This document shows positions 6,382 to 28,359 of a stretch of DNA of 40,995 nucleotides, in pieces (position 1 is the stretch's first letter; each line of letters starts with the position of its first letter). Position numbers and translations under genes: made by a program. The stretch comes from an uncultured Armatimonadota bacterium (GTDB lineage Bacteria > Armatimonadota > Fimbriimonadia > Fimbriimonadales > Fimbriimonadaceae), in assembly GCA_903899015.1 (NCBI GenBank), contig CAIUHP010000016.1:1-40995 (forward strand). The letters run 5' to 3'. A model generated the notes under the pieces. That model had not been told where the DNA came from, did not search any database, and worked only from the letters and a program-made list of their open reading frames with translations.

Positions 6382-9300
6382 ATGCCACACACGGAACATA
6401 TTTCGAAACCTCGGCGGGCGTTTAGGCCGCCGATACAATTAATTTTATTGCTACTTGCGCTGTTGCTGCCAGCAATTGGATCAGCTCAAACAGTCAAGTC
6501 TCTCGCACTCAATCCAACGACGGTCAATGCGGGCTATTCCAGCACTGGAACAGTTACACTGTCTGCCGCCGCACCTGCCGGTGGATTGGTTGTCACTCTG
6601 GGCTCAAACTCCACTTCAGCTACTGTCTCTAATGTGACGGTTGCTGCAGGCGCGACGACTGCAAACTTCACGGTTGCAACGTCGCAGCAAGGAGCTACGA
6701 GCGTCACTGCGACAATCACCGCTTCAGCGAATAGCAGTTCGCAAACGGCTAACCTGACGATCAATCCAATCGCTTTGACTGGATTCTCAGTTGCCCCAAG
6801 CCCTGCTTACGGTGGTGGAACGATCACAGGAACTCTCACGATTAGCGCAGCGGCACCGCCAGCTGGCTTTAGAGTGAACCTTTCTTCTGACCTTCCTTCG
6901 CAAGTGACCGTCCCGGCAACAGCCACGGTACCGTCAGGAGCAACCACTGGAACCTTTACGATCACGGCGACGCCGGTGACCAGTAAGATAACGGCCAACC
7001 TTAGTGCAAGCGCTTTTGGCGCTTCGTTCCCATGGGCCCTTCCAGTTATTCCTCCGGTTCCTAATTCGGTAACGCTTAACCCAACATCTGTTCTTGGCGG
7101 CGCAAGCTCCTCAGCGAAAGTAACCCTTACGGGTGCTGCTCCGACTGGCGGCGTTGTTGTCACGCTTGGTTCCGACAATGCGGCAGCACAGGTTCCTGGA
7201 TCGATTACGATTCCAGCTGGCGGTTCTTCAGCCAACTTCACTGTCACAACGTCTGGTATTACCACTGGCGTCACAGCCAATATTTCAGGAACTGTTGGTA
7301 CGACCAAGGTTTCTTCCGCTCTCACGATTACGGCACCAACGGTCACCTCACTCTCCTTGAATCCTACAACTCTATTGGGTGGTAGCGGTTCAGTTGGAAC
7401 GGTCAAGATCTCAAGTGCTGCTCCGACTGGCGGCGACACAATCGCGCTCAGTTCAAACAACGCATCGGTAACGGTCCCTGCAACAGTAGTTATTCCTGCT
7501 GGAGCTACTACTGCAAACTTTAACGTTACAACGGTAGCAGTTGCTGCCAACTTGACGGCTACGATTACAGCCGCTGCTAATAGCACTTCGCAAACTGCGA
7601 CGCTATCGGTCGCCGGACCAACTGTTACTACTCTCACCCTCAATCCAACATCAGTGTTGGGCGGAGTGAGCTCTACTGGAACCATTACGATTAGTTCAGC
7701 TGCACCAGCAGGTGGACTGTCAGTCGCTCTTGCATCAAATAACGCATCTGCAACTGTTCCAGCAACCGCAACCATCGCAGCGGGCGCTACCACCGGTACT
7801 TTCACTGTTACGACAGTGGCAGTTGGTGCAAACGCAAACGCAACAATTACAGCTTCGTCAAATGGCTCGAGCCAAACTGCTTCCCTTGCACTTACGGCTC
7901 CAACGATTAGCGCCTTCTCGCTCAATCCGACAACCGTAGTTGGTGGAATCAGCTCGACAGGCACCATTACACTTACAAGCGCAGCCCCTGCAAGTGGCTT
8001 TGTGGTTTCGCTAGCATCTAACAATGCTGCGGCCACAGTTCCTGCGACTGCTACCGTTGCAGGTGGTGCAACTTCTGGAACCTTCACTGTAACAACTACA
8101 GCAGTGGGTGCCAACGCTTCAGCAACGATCACGGGAACCGCTAACGGCCAATCGCCAACAGCGACCCTCGCGATCACTGCTCCAACTATCACTGGCGTCT
8201 CCCTCAACCCAACTTCGGTTACGGGTGGTGTGTCTTCAACCGGTACGGTTACACTCAGCAGTGCTGCTCCAGCAGCTGGCTTTGCAGTCACCCTGACATC
8301 CAGCAACACCGCGGCCGCAACTGTTCCAGCAACAGTATCAGTCGCAGCAGGTGCTACAACCGCGACCTTTACGGTTTCCACGGTTACAGTTGTCAGCAAT
8401 GCAACTTCAACAATCACTGCAGCTGCGAACGGCGTTTCTCAGACAGCATCGCTTTCAGTGAATGCAGGATCTGCAGTTACGTTGAAGCTTGCTGGTGGTG
8501 GAATTGTTGGAGGCTTGTCCTTCGGCAATAACACAGTGACCATTAGCTCGGCTGCTCCAGCAGGTGGGACGGTCATTAACCTCAGCACCAACAATGCTGC
8601 CGTAACTGTTCCTTCAACGGTCACAGTTCCAGCCGGTGCGACAGTAACCCCTGGCTTCACAGTGAGCACCGTTGGTGTTACTTCCAATCAGGTTGTAACG
8701 ATCACGGCTACTCTCGGTGGTGCAACTTCGAAGGCAACCCTCACGGTTGTTCCTGCTTACATTAAGACAGTGGCTCTCAGCCCTTCAACAGTCGCTGGTG
8801 GCACATCGTCAACCGGTACTGTCACGCTGAACGGTCCAGTCGCTGCAGGCAGCACGACAACAGTCACTCTGGCTTCAAATAACGCAGCCGTAGTAGTTCC
8901 TGCTTCCGTTAGTGTTGCGGCCGGTGCTACAACGGCAACGTTCACGGCAACGACCAATGCGGTCCTGTCATCGACGTCAGTTACGGTTACCGCGACCACT
9001 GGTTCAAACAGTGCAACCGGAACAATCACCGTTGCTCCTCCAGCAGTCACTGCTCTCTCATTGAATCCAACTAGCTTGGTCGGTGGAAACAGTTCAACTG
9101 GCACGGTGACAATCAGTAGCGCAGCCCCAGCCGGCGGCCTTACCGTTACTCTCGCTTCGAACAACGCAGCCGCAACTGTTCCTGCAACCGTAAGTGTTGC
9201 AGCCGGTGCAACTTCTGCAACGTTCTCAGTTACAACCGTAGCCGTTGGGTCCAACGCGACCGCAACGATTTCGGCAACTGCAAACAGCGCGACTTCAACT

Positions 9301-12300
9301 GCATCGCTCACCATTACAGCTCCAACGATCACAGGACTTTCGCTGAACCCTGCTTCAGTTACGGGTGGAACGGCCTCAGTCGCCACCATCACGCTAAGCA
9401 GCCCAGCACCTGCCGCTGGATTCCCTGTAACGCTCACTTCGAGCAACACGTCAGCTGCTACGGTTCCTGCAACGACAACAATCGCTGCTGGCGCAACAAC
9501 TGGCACATTCTCGGTAACTTCGCTCGCCGTAGCTACCAACACCACTTCAACGATTACTGCCGCTGCTAACGGAGTCTCTCAGACTGCCAGCCTTGCAGTG
9601 ACTTCTTCGTCGACTGTGACTCTTTACCTCGCTGGCGGCGATATCGTCGGCGGCTTGTCATTCGGCAACAACACCGTTACTCTCAGCACCGCATCTCCTG
9701 AAGGTGGAACAGTGGTCGCACTTTCCTCCAATAATGCAGCGGTCACAGTGCCAGCAAGCGTAACAGTGGCGGCGGGCCAAACGGTTAGCCCAGCGTTCAC
9801 CGTAACAACGACACCAGTTGCAACCCAACAGGTTGTTACCATCACTGCAAGTCTGAACGGCGGAACTTCCACCGCTCAACTTACGGTTGTCGTTCCAACG
9901 ATCAGCTCCGTCGCAATGAGCCCAACAGCAGTTGCTGGCGGCCTTTCCTCAACTGGAACGGTCACACTTAACGCGAATGCGCCTACCGGTGGAATCACCG
10001 TAACGCTAGCTTCGAGTGACGCTTCAACAACAGTGCCGGCATCGGTATCAGTTGCTGCCGGATCCAAGACTGCAACATTCACCGCAACGACGGTCGGTGT
10101 CGCAGCCGCAACCTCAGTTACGATCACAGGAACGACTGGCGCGACCAGCAAGACTGCGACGTTAACGGTCAATCCTCCTGCTGTAACGGGTCTGACGCTC
10201 AACCCAACATCCGTCGTCGGTGGAACTCCTTCGACAGGAACTGTAACGATCAGTAGCGCAGCCGGGCCAAATGGCTTGGTAGTAACGTTGACTTCAAACA
10301 ACGCTGCTGCTACGGTTCCAGCGTCCGTAACCATTCCATCGGGAGCAACAACAGCCACCTTCACCGTGACATCTGTAGCGGTAGCAACCAATGCCACCGC
10401 GACAATCTCAGCCGCTGGTGGTGGAGCAACTTCAACTGCGACCCTCGCAGTAACCGCTCCAACTCTTACTGGCCTTACCTTGAACCCAACAACGGTTACC
10501 GGTGCGACCACTTCGACTGGTACGGTCACTCTTAGCAGTGCAGCTCCTGCTGATGGTTTTGTAGTCGCGCTCTCATCGAGCAACACTTCAGCCGCAACAG
10601 TTCCTGCATCTGTAACAGTAGCCGCTGGTGCAACCACTGCAACCTTCACAGCTACATCACTGAACCTTGCAACAAACTCAACATCGACAATCACGGCATC
10701 TGCAAACTCGGTTTCGCAGACGGCGACTCTGACTGTCAATGCTGGAGCAACGATCACGTTGAAGCTCGCTGGTGGTGGAATTGTTGGAGGCTTGTCCTTC
10801 GGCAACAACACCGTAACGCTATACTCAGCTGCTCCTGCTGGTGGAACGGTTATTAACCTTTCTTCTAACAACGCAGCTGTAACGGTTCCTGCAAGCGTCA
10901 CAATCGCTGCAGGCGCTACGGTTAGCCCCGCGTTCACGGTCACGACGACTGCTGTTTCTACTCAGCAAATCGTTACGATCACAGCATCCTTGGGTGGTGC
11001 CACAAGCACTGCGCGACTTACGGTGGTTGTTCCTACAATTAGCGCAGTCACGATGAGCCCAACCTCGTTGGTTGGTGGCAATTCCTCTACCGGAACCGTC
11101 ACCTTGAACGCAAATGCTCCTACCGGCGGACTTGCAGTTACCCTCGCATCGAGCGATGCGTCGACAACTGTTCCAGCATCCGTAACGGTTGCTGCTGGAT
11201 CCAAGACGGCAACGTTCACTGCCACAACGGTAGCGGTTGCTTCAAACGTAACAGCAACGATCACCGGAACGACTGGAACGACAAGCAAGACTGCAACCCT
11301 TGGAGTCACGGCTCCAACAGTAACGACGCTCGCTCTGAACCCAACTACAGTGGTTGGCGGAATTGCGAACTCGACTGGAACGGTCACGCTATCGAGCCCA
11401 GCTCCAACAGGTGGCTTCACGCTCACCGCATCCTCAAGCAACACATCGGCTGCAACAGTTCCTGGAACCGTTACAGTCGCTGCTGGCGCTACAACTGGAA
11501 CGTTCACCGTAACAAGTGCCAAGATCGCTGCTGACGCATCGGTCACGATCACACTTGCTGCGAACTCGACGAACTACACTGCAACTCTTGCAGTCAAGGC
11601 TCAGACGGTTGCTGGAGTTTCAGTTAGCCCAACATCGGTTATCGGTGGAACGTCCTCGACCGGAACGGTCACAATTAGCTCCGCAGCACCTGCTGGCGGA
11701 ACGGTTGTAAACCTGGCTTCGGACAACGCATCGGCAACTGTACCGGCTTCGGTAACAGTAACCGCTGGCGCAACCACGGCCACATTCACGGTAACAACAA
11801 CTGCAGTCAATGCCAACGCAACTGCTCACATCAGCGCAACGGGTGCTGATACTTCAACCGCAAGCGCGTCGCTCGCGGTGACGACTGCCGGTGTTACATC
11901 GGTATCGCTCAACCCAACATCCGTCGTAGGCGGCAACCCTTCCACTGGAACAGTGACTCTAACCGGTCCTGCACCAACAGGTGGAACTTCAGTAGCTCTT
12001 CTGTCGGATAATGCATCGGCAACTGTACCTTCATCAGTTACAGTCGCTGCAGGCGCAACCACCGCTACGTTTACCGTTACAACAACGGCGGTCGGAGTTG
12101 ATGGAACGGCAAACGTTTCGGCTACTGCGAACGGAACAGCCTCGGCTGCTCTCACGCTCAAGGCCCCAACGGTAACTGGACTCGCGTTCAGCCCAAGCTC
12201 CGTCATCGGTGGAAACCTCTCAACTGGAACGGTCACACTCTCCAGCCCAGCTCCAACTGGCGGATTCATTGTGAGCCTGACTTCCGGAAACACTGCAGCA

Positions 12301-12735
12301 GGAACAGTTCCTGCGACAGTAACAGTGGTAGGCGGTGCAACAACTGCAACCTTCTCATTCACTTCGATCCCAGTTCAAACCGCAACACCGGTCACGGTAA
12401 CAGCGACTGCGAATTCGGTTTCGGTAACTGGAACGGTCACAGTAACAGCTCCAACTCTCTCCCTCTTCACGATCGCACCTGCGAATACGGTTGGCGGACA
12501 GAATGCAACTGGAAAAATCACTCTGACAGGAGCAGCACCTGCAGGCGGCTACGTAATTACCGTAGCTTCCGATAAGGCCACTGCAACTCCTGCTACAACG
12601 GTAACGATCCCAGCAGGTGCAACCTCTGGAACGTTCCCAATCCCAACTCATGCAGTCAGCGTACGAACTGTTGTCAACATCACCGTTTCGGTTAACGGAA
12701 CCACGATCAAGACAGCCTTCGCCGTTACTCTGTAA
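6382..12735 (+). CDS. Giant secreted protein of 22 Ig-like repeats
   Basis: A 2117-residue protein, probably secreted and extended, with a surface or matrix role. An ATG at 6382 follows GGGGA with 7-nt spacing. Residues 1-36 form a signal peptide (two Arg, then a Leu-rich core ending GSAQ). The rest is 22 tandem repeats of about 94 residues, each opening with a xLxLNPTxVxGG-type strand, then STGTVTLSSAAPAGG, then TVPATVxVAAGATTATFTVTT and TATITAxANG. Composition is extreme: Ala, Thr, Ser, Val and Gly dominate, there is no Cys and one Trp (repeat 2). Repeats 8, 12 and 16 open with LAGG-x-IVGGLSFGNN instead, giving a four-repeat super-period. No sortase motif, PEP-CTERM, type 9 tail or transmembrane anchor follows repeat 22, so how it is held or released is unclear. 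Partner and ligand are unknown. Confidence 0.85.
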   Translation: MPHTEHISKPRRAFRPPIQLILLLLALLLPAIGSAQTVKSLALNPTTVNAGYSSTGTVTLSAAAPAGGLVVTLGSNSTSATVSNVTVAAGATTANFTVATSQQGATSVTATITASANSSSQTANLTINPIALTGFSVAPSPAYGGGTITGTLTISAAAPPAGFRVNLSSDLPSQVTVPATATVPSGATTGTFTITATPVTSKITANLSASAFGASFPWALPVIPPVPNSVTLNPTSVLGGASSSAKVTLTGAAPTGGVVVTLGSDNAAAQVPGSITIPAGGSSANFTVTTSGITTGVTANISGTVGTTKVSSALTITAPTVTSLSLNPTTLLGGSGSVGTVKISSAAPTGGDTIALSSNNASVTVPATVVIPAGATTANFNVTTVAVAANLTATITAAANSTSQTATLSVAGPTVTTLTLNPTSVLGGVSSTGTITISSAAPAGGLSVALASNNASATVPATATIAAGATTGTFTVTTVAVGANANATITASSNGSSQTASLALTAPTISAFSLNPTTVVGGISSTGTITLTSAAPASGFVVSLASNNAAATVPATATVAGGATSGTFTVTTTAVGANASATITGTANGQSPTATLAITAPTITGVSLNPTSVTGGVSSTGTVTLSSAAPAAGFAVTLTSSNTAAATVPATVSVAAGATTATFTVSTVTVVSNATSTITAAANGVSQTASLSVNAGSAVTLKLAGGGIVGGLSFGNNTVTISSAAPAGGTVINLSTNNAAVTVPSTVTVPAGATVTPGFTVSTVGVTSNQVVTITATLGGATSKATLTVVPAYIKTVALSPSTVAGGTSSTGTVTLNGPVAAGSTTTVTLASNNAAVVVPASVSVAAGATTATFTATTNAVLSSTSVTVTATTGSNSATGTITVAPPAVTALSLNPTSLVGGNSSTGTVTISSAAPAGGLTVTLASNNAAATVPATVSVAAGATSATFSVTTVAVGSNATATISATANSATSTASLTITAPTITGLSLNPASVTGGTASVATITLSSPAPAAGFPVTLTSSNTSAATVPATTTIAAGATTGTFSVTSLAVATNTTSTITAAANGVSQTASLAVTSSSTVTLYLAGGDIVGGLSFGNNTVTLSTASPEGGTVVALSSNNAAVTVPASVTVAAGQTVSPAFTVTTTPVATQQVVTITASLNGGTSTAQLTVVVPTISSVAMSPTAVAGGLSSTGTVTLNANAPTGGITVTLASSDASTTVPASVSVAAGSKTATFTATTVGVAAATSVTITGTTGATSKTATLTVNPPAVTGLTLNPTSVVGGTPSTGTVTISSAAGPNGLVVTLTSNNAAATVPASVTIPSGATTATFTVTSVAVATNATATISAAGGGATSTATLAVTAPTLTGLTLNPTTVTGATTSTGTVTLSSAAPADGFVVALSSSNTSAATVPASVTVAAGATTATFTATSLNLATNSTSTITASANSVSQTATLTVNAGATITLKLAGGGIVGGLSFGNNTVTLYSAAPAGGTVINLSSNNAAVTVPASVTIAAGATVSPAFTVTTTAVSTQQIVTITASLGGATSTARLTVVVPTISAVTMSPTSLVGGNSSTGTVTLNANAPTGGLAVTLASSDASTTVPASVTVAAGSKTATFTATTVAVASNVTATITGTTGTTSKTATLGVTAPTVTTLALNPTTVVGGIANSTGTVTLSSPAPTGGFTLTASSSNTSAATVPGTVTVAAGATTGTFTVTSAKIAADASVTITLAANSTNYTATLAVKAQTVAGVSVSPTSVIGGTSSTGTVTISSAAPAGGTVVNLASDNASATVPASVTVTAGATTATFTVTTTAVNANATAHISATGADTSTASASLAVTTAGVTSVSLNPTSVVGGNPSTGTVTLTGPAPTGGTSVALLSDNASATVPSSVTVAAGATTATFTVTTTAVGVDGTANVSATANGTASAALTLKAPTVTGLAFSPSSVIGGNLSTGTVTLSSPAPTGGFIVSLTSGNTAAGTVPATVTVVGGATTATFSFTSIPVQTATPVTVTATANSVSVTGTVTVTAPTLSLFTIAPANTVGGQNATGKITLTGAAPAGGYVITVASDKATATPATTVTIPAGATSGTFPIPTHAVSVRTVVNITVSVNGTTIKTAFAVTL
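8479..10805 (+). repeat. Distant direct repeat inside the giant gene (8479-8528 and 10756-10805)
   Basis: Fifty bases at 8479-8528 recur at 10756-10805 with a single mismatch, including 38 consecutive identical bases (8491-8528 and 10768-10805). They encode the LAGGGIVGGLSFGN start of repeats 8 and 16. The equivalent stretch in repeat 12 (about 9628-9665) codes for a similar peptide with many synonymous changes. Confidence 0.85.
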
Positions 12736-15213: not shown

Positions 15214-15621
15214 TTAATTCATCTGAACTGGAATTCGGATGGCATTTGCAGCTGTGGCCTTGGGTATCGAAACCCTTAGGCATCCATTCTGGAAAGTAGC
15301 GGAAAATCCTTTGGAGGCAACCGGAAAATCGATTGGAAAAGTTCGATGAAGGGAAGAGCACAAGTGATCGAGACTGTAGGCATCATTGAGTGTGCTTCCT
15401 GATTTCTTAGCTCGGATGGTTAGGAATTGACCAGTTAATTCGATGTGAACGTCCTGGCGATTCAGGCCCCGCAATTGGGCTGTAATTTGTAGCTCGGTGC
15501 TGCTCTCGGTAACTTCGACTTTAGGTGCGCTTTCGTCGCATGCACAACCAAAAACGTCAGCCATCATTTTGTCAAAGGGGTGGCAACTGTTGAGTCGCTC
15601 TGTTGGCCATTGTGTGATCAT
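15214..15621 (-). CDS. Small heat-shock protein, Hsp20 / alpha-crystallin family
   Basis: A 135-residue holdase chaperone that would bind unfolding proteins in the cytoplasm. The alpha-crystallin domain runs from about residue 35 (KVEVTESSTELQITAQLRGL) to 125. NGCLRVSIPKA is the conserved G-x-L strand near the end, and IRIPV is the C-terminal I-x-I anchor used for oligomer assembly. I chose the ATG at 15621 because GGAGGAA stands just upstream. The frame stays open to 15795 but that extension has no domain features and runs into the neighbouring gene. A possible promoter (TTGTTG, 17 nt, TATCAT) lies about 50 bp upstream, with GACGTAT repeated directly in the region. It sits downstream of two PAS/HTH regulator genes, which fits stress control. 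Confidence 0.9.
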   Translation of the reverse strand: MITQWPTERLNSCHPFDKMMADVFGCACDESAPKVEVTESSTELQITAQLRGLNRQDVHIELTGQFLTIRAKKSGSTLNDAYSLDHLCSSLHRTFPIDFPVASKGFSATFQNGCLRVSIPKATAANAIRIPVQMN

Positions 15622-15751
15622 GTTTCCTCCGGTCAAGGCGTCCGTTGCCTCGTGTGGGTAAATGATACGTCCGCAATAATTGGTCAACAAGTCGAGAATT
15701 AATACGTCATAAGAATGAATGACAAGGAATCCAACGTCAATATGGATTGCT

Positions 15752-16423
15752 TTAACCGATTGTGCTTCTTTCGATATCCGTGACTTCCCGAACAAAACAG
15801 ATGACTAGGCGTTCGCTATTCGAGTGAAGTACGGACAGTGAAGCCCTAATTAGGGACTCTGTTCCATCCTTTTTAAGTGCTGGCGTATCAACGTGATCAC
15901 CCATAAGATGCCTTTTGGGGTCGCCTAAGTAACTTTGCACATGAGTGTCATGGACTTCGCGATAACTTTCTGGCACCAAAAAGCGATGATCACGGCCGAT
16001 AAGCTCTTGGGTTGAATACCCAAAAATTTCGGCAACCGCCTGGTTCGCAAATTCAATCAATCCAGCCTCTGAAACGACGAGGATCGCTTCGGGTGCTTCT
16101 TCGATGATTTCTCGGTATGTGAGAACGTTTCCATCGGGAATATCGATTTGAATCTCGTGGACGAGCGAGGCGTTGGCATCCTGAAGGTGCTTGACTTCTA
16201 GATCGCGTTGAGCGCGCATCATTAAGGCGACGAGCTCCGTTCGGTTATACGGGCCAAATTTGATGCGAACTCGTCCCCAATAGGTGCCAACTGTCGCTTC
16301 ACTGATGCCAAGACGTTCTGCGATCGCGAGATCGGTAAGTCCCTCGGCGGCGAGATCCAGCAGTTGGTGCTCGCGAGGGGAAAGGTTCGGAACCGGTCGC
16401 TCAGGTTGCATTTCTTTGGCCAA
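15752..16423 (-). CDS. HTH (LuxR-type) - PAS regulator, copy 1
   Basis: A 223-residue regulator with an unusual order: the LuxR/GerE-type helix-turn-helix comes first (about residues 14-68, LSPREHQLLDLAAEGLTD ... ISEATVGTYWGRVRIKFG), then a short coiled linker (70-95), then a PAS domain (about 103-215, ILVVSEAGLIEFANQAVAEIFGYS ... LKKDGTE). PAS domains bind small ligands, haem or flavin, or mediate dimerisation; no covalent cofactor Cys is obvious. The listed start is a TTG. An ATG four codons in (16411) is equally possible. A perfect inverted repeat directly overlaps the promoter region, suggesting self-control. It is a close paralogue of the next gene and related to the interrupted gene at 17278. 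Confidence 0.85.
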   Translation of the reverse strand: MAKEMQPERPVPNLSPREHQLLDLAAEGLTDLAIAERLGISEATVGTYWGRVRIKFGPYNRTELVALMMRAQRDLEVKHLQDANASLVHEIQIDIPDGNVLTYREIIEEAPEAILVVSEAGLIEFANQAVAEIFGYSTQELIGRDHRFLVPESYREVHDTHVQSYLGDPKRHLMGDHVDTPALKKDGTESLIRASLSVLHSNSERLVICFVREVTDIERSTIG

Positions 16424-16432
16424 GCCAAAAGT

Positions 16433-16451
16433 ATCTGACTTGATGTCAGAT
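16433..16451 (-). promoter_or_regulatory. Inverted repeat, candidate operator of HTH-PAS copy 1
   Basis: ATCTGAC (16433-16439), TTGAT, GTCAGAT (16445-16451): perfect 7-bp arms around a 5-nt centre, ending 10 nt before the TTG start at 16423. The repeat overlaps a GATACT -10-like hexamer on the minus strand. A similar core (TCTG-x-CT-x-GATGTC) occurs upstream of the paralogous gene. Confidence 0.5.
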
Positions 16452-16527
16452 TAACGCATCAGCGTCAGAGATTCCTGTCCCGATTTCCACTGATTTGCAA
16501 CCTAATCAAGTCGGAAGGGTGTGGACC

Positions 16528-17163
16528 CTAAGAAATTGCTCGCAACGCACAAGTGACCAGTGTTCCAGTCGGAGTAGACAGAGCAGAGAGTGAGGCTCGC
16601 ACCAAGAACTCGGTACCGTCTTTGTGAAGGGCAGGAGTTTCCAAGTGGCTACCCATTTCACGCCGCATGGGGTCTCGAATGTAATCCTCTCGATGTAAGG
16701 TGTGCTGCTCGCGATACCTTTGAGGGATCAACTGAGTGATTTCAACTCCTTGGAGTTCCTCCCTTTCGTAACCAAATAGTTCGAGAGCGGCCAAATTAGC
16801 GTGCTCAATCGTGCCATTTTGTTTGACGAGGAGCATCGCATCGGGAGCGTTTTCTAAAAGCTCACGGTAGATCGAAGCTGAGCCTGAAGCTACTCGAACC
16901 TGCAACTCTCTTACCAACTGCTCGTTCTCTTTTCTTAGAGCTTCAACGGCAGCCTCTCGCTCGCTTCGCATCATGATTGCGACGAGCTCCGTGCGACTAA
17001 ATGGACCGAATTTAATGCGTACCCTCCCCCAATAGGTTCCAACCGTTGCTTCACTGATGCCAAGTCTTAGGGCAATAGCGGAATCAGTCAAACCTTCTGA
17101 TGCGAAGTTAATGAGTTGTTGCTCCCGGGGGGACAGTTTGGGATCGTTCCTTGCTTCGTGCAT
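16528..17163 (-). CDS. HTH (LuxR-type) - PAS regulator, copy 2
   Basis: A 211-residue paralogue of the previous gene with the same order: HTH at about 9-65 (LSPREQQLINFASEGLTD ... ISEATVGTYWGRVRIKFG, nearly identical in the recognition helix), linker, then PAS at about 95-205 (MLLVKQNGTIEHANLAALELFGYE ... LHKDGTE). The near-identical recognition helix predicts that both copies bind the same DNA site, while their PAS domains differ and could sense different signals. ATG start at 17163, with TATCAT 9 nt upstream and no strong Shine-Dalgarno sequence. The stop is TAG. It ends about 100 bp upstream of copy 1 and reads toward it. Confidence 0.85.
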   Translation of the reverse strand: MHEARNDPKLSPREQQLINFASEGLTDSAIALRLGISEATVGTYWGRVRIKFGPFSRTELVAIMMRSEREAAVEALRKENEQLVRELQVRVASGSASIYRELLENAPDAMLLVKQNGTIEHANLAALELFGYEREELQGVEITQLIPQRYREQHTLHREDYIRDPMRREMGSHLETPALHKDGTEFLVRASLSALSTPTGTLVTCALRAIS

Positions 17164-17183
17164 CGCGAGTGTATGATACGATA

Positions 17184-17199
17184 TCTGCTAGATGTCTAG
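17184..17199 (-). promoter_or_regulatory. Operator-like motif upstream of HTH-PAS copy 2
   Basis: TCTGCTAGATGTCTAG at 17184-17199 contains the palindrome CTAGA-TG-TCTAG and aligns with the inverted repeat at 16433-16451 (shared TCTG-x-CT-x-GATGTC). It lies between copy 2 and the divergent third copy, 20 bp from the first start codon. Confidence 0.4.
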
Positions 17200-17277
17200 G
17201 AACTAATCAAGGAAATGTTGAAATAATCACATCCAATTGTTCGTCCAAGATATGTTAAGTATTGACAGGAACTACTT

Positions 17278-17886
17278 ATGAAGGGACTCAGTAAGCCTGA
17301 TCAAGATGTTTTGCAATTGTTGATTCAAGGCATAAGCGATCGTGAGGTCTGCCGGCAGTTGAAGATTAGCGAATCGGCACTTCATCGGTAAGTCAAACGA
17401 ATCCAGCTTCGAGCGCAAGTTGAATCCGACGATGCTGGCAGACACTATGAAAGAGCCCTGAAACTAAGAGCAGAGGGGCAGAATCTGGCGTTGAAATCCC
17501 GCTTAAATGCGTTGATGGAGATCTTGCCTCAAGCGGTGTTGATCATTGATGGTCGAAGTGGGCAAATCAAGGAATCCAATCTCAAAGCATGTGAGATGTT
17601 TGGATACTCCAGCTACGAAATGGCGAATCTCACGGTCGAAGACCTTGTTCCAGCAGACCTCAAGAAAAACCATCCTGCTTTTCGACTTGCCTTCATGATG
17701 AATACAAGGAAACGGCAAATGGGTTACCATCCTCCAATTAGGGGCCTTTGTAAAGATGGCACTCAGTTAGACATGGATATCGCTTTGACCGCGACCGAAG
17801 CAGATGACGACGTTATGGTCATTTGCGGTGAACGCCAACCCGCGAAATCAGGTGTCATAGAAAAATTCGAAGCAAGTAGAAAATAA
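17278..17886 (+). pseudogene. HTH-PAS regulator, copy 3, with one in-frame TAA
   Basis: The ATG at 17278 follows AGGAA with 7-nt spacing. The frame reads an HTH (LSKPDQDVLQLLIQGISD ... KISESALHR), then TAA at 17389-17391 (codon 38), then continues without any frameshift (VKRIQLRAQ...) through a coiled linker and a full PAS domain (VLIIDGRSGQIKESNLKACEMFGYS ... LCKDGTQ) to a TAA at 17884-17886. By alignment with copies 1 and 2 the stop falls inside the HTH recognition helix at the position of their Tyr (ISEATVGTY). The layout is otherwise that of an intact 202-residue regulator. An annotation tool would report only the part from about 17491. It may be a recent pseudogene, a consensus error, or a stop that is read through. 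Divergent from copy 2, and followed after 128 bp by the Usp gene. Confidence 0.7.
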
Positions 17887-17938
17887 GGCGTTTGCTTGTC
17901 CCTGCTTCTCATGACACCCTTCGACTGACTTTGAATTG

Positions 17939-17950
17939 GCGACTAGTCGC
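17939..17950. promoter_or_regulatory. 12-bp palindrome between HTH-PAS copy 3 and Usp
   Basis: GCGACTAGTCGC is a perfect palindrome 64 bp before the Usp start codon. It could be a regulator site, but there is no second copy in the window. Confidence 0.3.
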
Positions 17951-18014
17951 AAGGGCCTAGAGCGCTCACACTTAGTCTGTACCTGCTGTCAATGATCGCC
18001 AGCAAGGAGCAGAT

Positions 18015-18896
18015 ATGAAGATTCTGGTTGGAGTAGACACTGCGCGGCATTACCAAGCCGTCATAAACTTAGCGGCAAGAATGAAGTTCCTGGAACCTCA
18101 TTAAATCCTAGCGAACAGTGTTGAGGTTAAAGTTCCGATTGCTGCCTATGGTAGCGCAGCCGAGGCCGCCTACAGAGCGGAATATGTTCAGCTTGCAAAC
18201 GTCGCCGCCGAGAATGCCATTGATGAAGCTAAAGGCTTTGCCAGCGCTCATGGTTACGATGCGGAATCACTTTTATTAGCAGGCAGTCCCGCGGTGGCTC
18301 TTGCGCAGTACGCCGACGAAGTTCATGCCGACGTTGTCGCGGTCCATTCCGACCGTAAAGGAAGGCTCGGTTCCTTCTTTTTGGGAAGTGTAAGTCGAGG
18401 ACTCGCCATATCTGCCCATCAGAGCATTCTCATTTCAAAAGGGGAAATTGCCGAACGGGGAAGCATTAAGGCGATCTTTGCAACTGACCATTCTGGTTAC
18501 GCGAACCAGGCACTCGATAAGCTCATCGCAATGAAGCCTTAAGGGCTGACGAAGATTGATGTTGTCTCGGTACTTCACATGGGGAGTCATATCCCCATTG
18601 ACCAGCCAGATCCCATGTATGCAGCAGTGGCAGTAGAAGATTCACTCTGGACTGAAGCGAAGTATAAAACCGAGGAGACAGCGAGCAAGCTTCGGGAGGC
18701 AGGTTACTCGAGCGCCGGCAAGCTGATGAACGGCCACGTTAACGAGATTCTCTCACAAGCCATGTCTGAATCGGAAGCTGACGTCCTCATCATGGGTGCT
18801 CAAGGTCATGGGGTAATACATCGGTTAATGCTAGGTAGCACTTCGCTCCATCAAGTTGTTGCCGAACCCTACTCGGTTTTCCTGCTGCGGCCCTAA
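18015..18896 (+). pseudogene. Tandem universal stress protein (UspA x2) with two in-frame TAA codons
   Basis: The ATG at 18015 follows AAGGAG. One frame runs to 18896 and encodes two UspA domains (293 codons): MKILVGVDTA ... at the start of the first, and SIKAIFATDHSGYANQAL at the start of the second. The second ends with the nucleotide-binding signature DVLIMGAQGHGVIHRLMLGS (G-x2-G-x9-G-S) and SVFLLRP. Two TAA codons interrupt this frame: 18102-18104 (codon 30, just before the second beta strand) and 18540-18542 (codon 176, in domain 2). There is no frameshift, and the coding signal is good on both sides of each stop. Usp proteins bind ATP or AMP and help cells survive stress, matching the neighbouring Hsp20 and PAS regulators. 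Read literally the gene is broken into three pieces. Confidence 0.75.
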
Positions 18897-28282: not shown

Positions 28283-28359
28283 GCTCCGGTCGTCTAGCGG
28301 TTTAGGACATCGCCCTCTCACGGCGAAGATCGCGGGTTCGAATCCCGTTCGGAGTACCA
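28283..28359 (+). tRNA. tRNA-Glu (anticodon CTC)
   Basis: A full cloverleaf can be drawn. The acceptor arm is GCTCCGG (28283-28289) with TCGGAGT (28349-28355), with G-U closing pairs. The D-arm follows. The anticodon stem TCGCC/GGCGA surrounds the loop CTCTCAC, whose anticodon is CTC. The T-arm is GCGGG-TTCGAAT-CCCGT. Discriminator A28356 and an encoded CCA follow at 28357-28359. The GTCTAGCGG D-region is typical of tRNA-Glu. A truncated gene begins immediately after the CCA. Confidence 0.92.

Follow-up and report, generated by a model that had tools for sequence, protein, structure and literature searches.

The window analysed here is one whole contig (C16, 40,995 nt) of the 4.94-Mb, 119-contig genome GCA_903899015.1 from an uncultured Fimbriimonadaceae bacterium of the phylum Armatimonadota, a little-studied bacterium of soil and freshwater. 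Between positions 15,214 and 18,896 it carries hsp20, two intact regulators that place a LuxR-type helix-turn-helix (HTH) before a PAS domain (A1 and A2), a third regulator of this kind (B) and a usp gene (Table 1). Our best explanation of this locus is that A1 and A2 are FG214-type switches that probably run a heme-based low-oxygen or redox regulon through a 20-bp palindrome, TGTCAT-N8-ATGACA. An earlier note on this DNA, made from the sequence alone, had described HTH-first PAS regulators between hsp20 and usp, and both the placement and the domain order are borne out by the open reading frames (ORFs) and by Pfam. The observation is real, and the interpretation given to it there is strengthened and widened by the present analysis.

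The kind of regulator found in the window has a described member, so the earlier remark that no system with such a layout was known does not hold for the regulators. FG214 of Fimbriimonas ginsengisoli is an HTH-first PAS bis-histidine heme one-component switch (PMC13060918; PDB 10jx and 10jy) in which His156 and His175 bind heme b, Met172 can serve as an alternative ligand and His159 is also important. FG214 is monomeric and off when oxidised, and in vitro it dimerises and binds DNA once the distal ligand is displaced by reduction or by imidazole (PMC13060918). When the class was reported in March 2026 its DNA site was an artificial one, and the available part of that report gives neither natural targets nor an operator (PMC13060918).

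The assignment of A1 and A2 to this class draws on sequence, conserved residues and a structural model. A phmmer search of the PDB with A2 returned 10jx (the FG214 PAS part) and 10jy at E = 8.2e-42; FixL followed at 2.4e-10 and, for the HTH, DevR/DosR structures 3c3w (3.3e-07) and 1zlj (1.9e-04). A1 and A2 share with FG214 the domain order, about 50% identity over the PAS part, the same HTH and all four heme-pocket residues (156, 159, 172, and 175 in FG214). Three of these (His154, Met170, and His173 in A1 and A2) are invariant in 25 of 25 A proteins, in an alignment that drew on 22 of 24 loci. A wider set of A proteins keeps the proximal histidine in 49 of 54, the methionine in 45 and the distal histidine in 42, with losses mainly in divergent members, and B proteins retain the same positions in 9 of 9, 7 of 9, and 8 of 9, respectively. 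FG214 itself is recognizable among the loci compared: the regulator of locus L053, from a genome of the same genus (G008), is identical over residues 73–214 and carries H, H, M, and H at positions 156, 159, 172, and 175, within the gene order usp-usp-B-A. An AlphaFold2 model of A2 (mean pLDDT 84.1, pTM 0.51) matched 10jx first both in Foldseek (E = 7.4e-17) and in VIA-align (Z 18.9, rmsd 8.8, 139 aligned), and FixL and EcDos ranked close below (FixL 1d06, Z 17.6 in VIA-align). Judging from the match to 10jx, A1 and A2 presumably carry heme, and by analogy with FG214 they may undergo a redox- or ligand-driven change from monomer to dimer. The A-type switches of this bacterium very probably sense oxygen or redox state by heme. 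Among 151 Armatimonadota genomes sampled (E 1e-30), matches outside Fimbriimonadaceae span the PAS part only, with the query aligned from residue 58 at the earliest, so the HTH-first form looks restricted to this family.

Other heme PAS proteins resemble the A proteins in some respects and differ in others. FixL and EcDos (DosP) share the PAS fold and the position of the proximal heme histidine. The column of the FixL distal-side arginine (Arg220) is hydrophobic in the A profile (Val in A1, Leu in A2), and the A proteins have a distal histidine. The output of FixL and EcDos is a kinase or a phosphodiesterase, and a Pfam scan of A1 and A2 found no kinase or cyclic-di-GMP output domain.

The earlier note had counted three related regulators, two of them intact. 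A1 and A2 are indeed intact and homologous, but B belongs to a separate subfamily with a diverged HTH, and the usp gene is broken as well. A1 and A2 are 55% identical overall and identical over SEATVGTYWGRVRIKFGP; the near-identical recognition helix noted earlier for this pair is in fact fully identical, and it is a trait of the whole A family rather than of the pair alone. The genome encodes four full-length A proteins, because contigs C89 (locus L015) and C113 (locus L014) each add one to A1 and A2. On C89 the A gene (minus strand) adjoins a B gene (plus strand) and a usp gene (minus strand), whereas on C113 it lies beside an extracytoplasmic function (ECF) sigma gene, with which it is convergent (L014:8970-10437). 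Four A paralogues share one recognition helix and would therefore serve one regulon, and the earlier suggestion of several sensors feeding a single regulon fits the invariant HTH, the number of full-length paralogues and the single operator family described below.

A palindrome-constrained de novo motif search of 95 regions upstream of A, B, hsp20, and usp genes returned TGTCAT.G.AT.C.ATGACA (width 20), with a log-likelihood ratio (LLR) of 268; two sets of neighbour genes drawn to the same size reached 86 and 96. In leave-one-genome-out scoring, for which training began from a consensus seed built on all data, scores above 10 bits were obtained before 12 of 13 linked hsp20, 8 of 19 usp, and 4 of 9 B genes, compared with 49 of 662 other neighbours; the sites number 35 distinct examples at 29 loci in 19 genomes. 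Each ORF was taken to start at its first Met, which displaces some of the upstream regions; the usp site on C89 (L015:8655-8678, 16.4 bits) was for this reason absent from the first scoring. Among hsp20 genes unlinked to A, 2 of 17 carry the site where the genome has A and 0 of 3 where it lacks A; for unlinked usp genes the counts are 5 of 14 and 0 of 7. A strict form of the palindrome, YGTCATNNNWWNNNATGACR, was matched at 31 places in 81 family genomes and its reversed control at one; the strict form is matched once in the window and never in 100 shuffles. Its three sites in the 4.94-Mb genome precede hsp20 in the window, a usp gene on contig C44 (site at 18416–18435) and, on C113, the ECF sigma gene that neighbours A; since this last gene has one of only three strict sites, the regulon may include a sigma cascade.

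The inverted repeat at 16,433, which the earlier note had put forward as a binding site, does exist (0.11 expected in the window at up to two mismatches), but it is not the shared operator. Its exact match is confined to the window copies among the loci compared, it scores as terminator-like, and the best operator score 5′ of A1 is 3.2 bits.

Table 1. Features of the hsp20–usp locus, with positions in the window.
Feature	Position	Strand	Remarks
hsp20, small heat-shock protein, 135 aa	15214–15621	-	Pfam HSP20 35.5 bits; linked homologues in 12 further loci
Predicted hsp20 operator TACGTCATAAGAATGAATGACAAG	15703–15726		20.4 bits (20.2 with matrix trained without this genome); centre 93 nt 5′ of ATG
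Second, weaker predicted site, overlapping the hsp20 operator	15718–15741		
A1, LuxR-type HTH then PAS, 219 aa	15752–16411	-	GerE 46.7 bits (residues 9–63), PAS 50.1 bits (99–210); His154, His157, Met170, His173
Inverted repeat	16433–16451		Probably either a local feature or a weak terminator following A2
A2, LuxR-type HTH then PAS, 211 aa	16528–17163	-	GerE 38 bits (residues 9–63), PAS_9 50.2 bits (107–208); His154, His157, Met170, His173
B, third HTH-first PAS regulator, broken	17278–17886	+	PAS 30.9 bits; GerE 20.6 bits, under its 23.5 cut-off
Predicted usp operator CTTGTCCCTGCTTCTCATGACACC	17895–17918		16.8 bits (16.1 with matrix trained without this genome); about 108 nt 5′ of ATG at 18015
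usp, tandem-domain, broken	18015–18896	+	Pfam Usp 73.2 bits, each TAA being translated as X

The association of these regulators with stress genes extends across same-family Armatimonadota metagenome-assembled genomes. We surveyed 51 loci around A (or B), leaving aside repeats of contigs under a G handle, L091–L096 and two HTH-only matches (L119 and L120). The commonest neighbour families are usp (14 loci, the broken usp of the window not among them) and hsp20 (13), and no other family exceeds 6. A linkage test used 23 genomes with coordinates, 18 of them with A, and 32 A clusters among the matches listed. Within 6 kb of these clusters usp was found at 10 against 0.29 expected by density (Poisson 8.6e-13), hsp20 at 8 against 0.24 (2.3e-10) and both at 7, although these p-values overstate independence because the genomes are related. 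The earlier note had named an architecture scattered without link to hsp20 or usp as evidence against itself, and the opposite was found. Gene orders vary: hsp20 may be divergent from A, a usp-hsp20 pair may be divergent from A, or A, phosphoketolase, acetate kinase, and usp may follow one another on one strand (L060:2601-8133 and L064:7620-13615), an arrangement that suggests an acetate-fermentation operon under a heme switch. The whole window set recurs in G013 (locus L048) as usp, B, A, and A with hsp20 about 1 kb further, and A2 is 71% identical to its counterpart there.

Linkage and the shared predicted palindrome support the earlier view of a module controlling the chaperone and Usp, but the likely target set is wider. 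Predicted operators also precede genes for protoglobin-chemoreceptors (L136 and L144), pyruvate:ferredoxin oxidoreductase (PFOR; L140), a nitrite reductase-like cytochrome c552 (L146), a CcmF-like protein (L150), an iron-sulfur assembly protein (L147), subunit I of a cytochrome bd oxidase divergent from an A gene (L212), a multicopper oxidase (L217), a short-chain dehydrogenase/reductase (SDR; L050), ECF sigma factors (L014 and L051), a P-type ATPase in the FG214 locus (L053), where usp and a 138-aa ORF have the operator too, and a member of a flavodoxin-like family. None of ten predicted target or neighbour proteins searched against NCBIfam exceeded a curated cut-off.

The content of this predicted regulon is best read as resembling that of the mycobacterial DosR regulon, which is rich in Usp and includes an alpha-crystallin, with one-component switches in place of a two-component system. 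The LuxR-type HTH of DevR (3c3w) is the nearest solved HTH to that of A2. DosR is a response regulator driven by the heme kinases DosS and DosT; unlike DosR, A1 and A2 gave no receiver domain in a Pfam scan, and the operator sequence is unlike the DosR box.

We hypothesize that A1 and A2 work as FG214 does. In the ferric state, His154 and His173 (His156 and His175 of FG214) would hold the heme while the HTH is tucked against the PAS domain. Reduction of the heme, or possibly its ligation by O2, NO, or CO, would displace the distal histidine and free the HTH, and the resulting dimer would bind the palindrome, usually 60–110 bp 5′ of hsp20, usp, often the regulator gene, and genes of anaerobic or low-oxygen metabolism. 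Binding would turn these genes on, a direction suggested by FG214 and by the position of the sites. The likely signal would be oxygen limitation or a reduced cell state, and B, which shares the heme ligands and has a diverged HTH, may act as a partner.

A different signal is conceivable, in that the heme switch might respond to oxidative stress or nitric oxide and not to low oxygen. The preprint speculates, in the part available, on oxidative-stress genes (PMC13060918), and predicted targets such as the protoglobin, cytochrome c552, and multicopper oxidase genes would also suit stress from nitric oxide or nitrite. We nonetheless consider this signal less likely, since cytochrome bd oxidase and PFOR point to oxygen limitation, as do phosphoketolase and acetate kinase between the regulator and usp in L060 and L064, and FG214 is off when oxidised (PMC13060918).

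It is also possible that the palindrome is bound by another factor, for example of the CRP/FNR or TetR type, and that the HTH-PAS genes are its targets, not its drivers. Only 22 of 54 A genes have an upstream score above 10 bits, a different LuxR-type gene (L151) also has an operator site in front of it, and the array-derived half-site of FG214, GGGGCGGGG in the available part of the preprint (PMC13060918), differs from that of the palindrome. The operator nevertheless tracks full-length A within the family: of 81 genomes, 36 have full-length A, counted only if a match spanned both HTH and PAS, and 19 of these contain a strict site, compared with 5 of the other 45 (p 6e-5); outside the genus the figures are 11 of 23 and 5 of 42 (p 0.002). 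In the five A-less genomes that hold a strict site, four sites lie inside ORFs and the fifth (G036) near an ORF start. Across 37 family genomes a related pattern was matched at 24 sites and its control at 5; in 24 genomes from other families of the order the pattern had no match and the control again 5. Furthermore, the 20-bp length accommodates two 9-bp half-sites and a 2-bp centre, and the clearest ligand-dependent binding of FG214 was reported at just this 9-2-9 inverted-repeat geometry (PMC13060918). The half-sites and spacing of CRP and FNR differ from those of the palindrome. On this evidence, control by another factor appears improbable. Least of all do we favour the view that these genes lie together by chance and have no control in common: the window copies of B and usp are broken and the top operator score of 20.2 bits falls below the best of 30 window shuffles (20.6), but the recurrence of the linkage in differing gene orders, the LLR and the leave-one-genome-out counts make it very improbable.

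Several observations weigh against an FG214-type regulon acting through this palindrome. The main loose end is the half-site, for TGTCATNGR is unlike GGGGCGGGG and only the 9-2-9 geometry agrees with what is available of the FG214 report (PMC13060918). Upstream scores are poor for A2 (0.1 bits) and the FG214 gene (7.3 bits) as well as for A1, so autoregulation is not general. Within the genus the association of A with the operator is not significant (8 of 13 against 0 of 3, p 0.2), and related genomes are non-independent samples throughout. Some divergent A members (in L079–L089) lack part of the heme triad. Certain operator matches fall inside ORFs, others precede carbohydrate-active genes of glycosyl hydrolase or BNR-repeat families (L142, L143, and L206), and strict operators stand about 95 nt 5′ of 471-aa ORFs of no known family (L198:1606-3018 and L202:1607-3019), which reach the edge of the loci examined and matched nothing in Pfam or NCBIfam at the cut-offs used.

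In the window, B and the adjoining usp appear to have been broken recently, and intact copies exist elsewhere in the genome (B at L015:7037-7708). Both genes run in the same direction (17,278–18,896), with three in-frame TAA, no frameshift and the predicted usp operator retained. Each reading frame is otherwise whole: the stop in B lies at 17389–17391 and those in usp at 18102–18104 and 18540–18542, one per domain match. These stops reflect either recent loss or a sequence or assembly error. Genome-wide recoding of TAA as a sense codon finds no support in the alignment: relatives carry different residues at the three stop columns (the usp columns hold Tyr and His in L048, the closest relative, and the B column holds A, V, S, E, and D), so no single sense reading fits. 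Comparison with L048 gave no sign of relaxed selection: pN/pS is 0.34 for usp and 0.40 for B, with synonymous sites near saturation, and because these values resemble those of A1 and A2 (0.25–0.42), older decay is not visible at that saturation. An apparent in-frame TAA in the hsp20 of G012 proved to be the normal stop of that gene.

Other features of the contig stand apart from this locus. A 2117-aa protein (6382–12735) consists by eye of many similar Ser/Thr/Ala-rich repeats, in a stretch with marked negative GC skew. A tRNA-Glu (anticodon CTC, 28283–28359) is the only tRNA in the contig, and Rfam and tRNA scans gave no match in 15,214–18,896. Matches to a sigma-70 promoter sought at hsp20 were not above chance.

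The literature searched yielded no published regulon for FG214-type switches, with PMC13060918 the only relevant source; the regulator kind is thus already known, while its target genes and natural operator are not in print within that literature. The targets and operator proposed here go beyond what the available part of that source reports (PMC13060918), and this locus and its relatives offer candidates for the targets, the natural operator and the role of the FG214-type switch. More broadly, and only tentatively, a low-oxygen or dormancy regulon of Fimbriimonadaceae, comprising stress proteins, alternative oxidase, PFOR, nitrite reduction, phosphoketolase-acetate kinase, and an ECF sigma factor, may be run by paralogous one-component heme switches acting through one 20-bp operator, with neither FNR nor a two-component DosSR, and tuned by B through its diverged HTH and possible mixed dimers. 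If true, this would be a DosR-like stress response achieved by a one-protein design, in a phylum for which the literature searched held no oxygen-response regulon.

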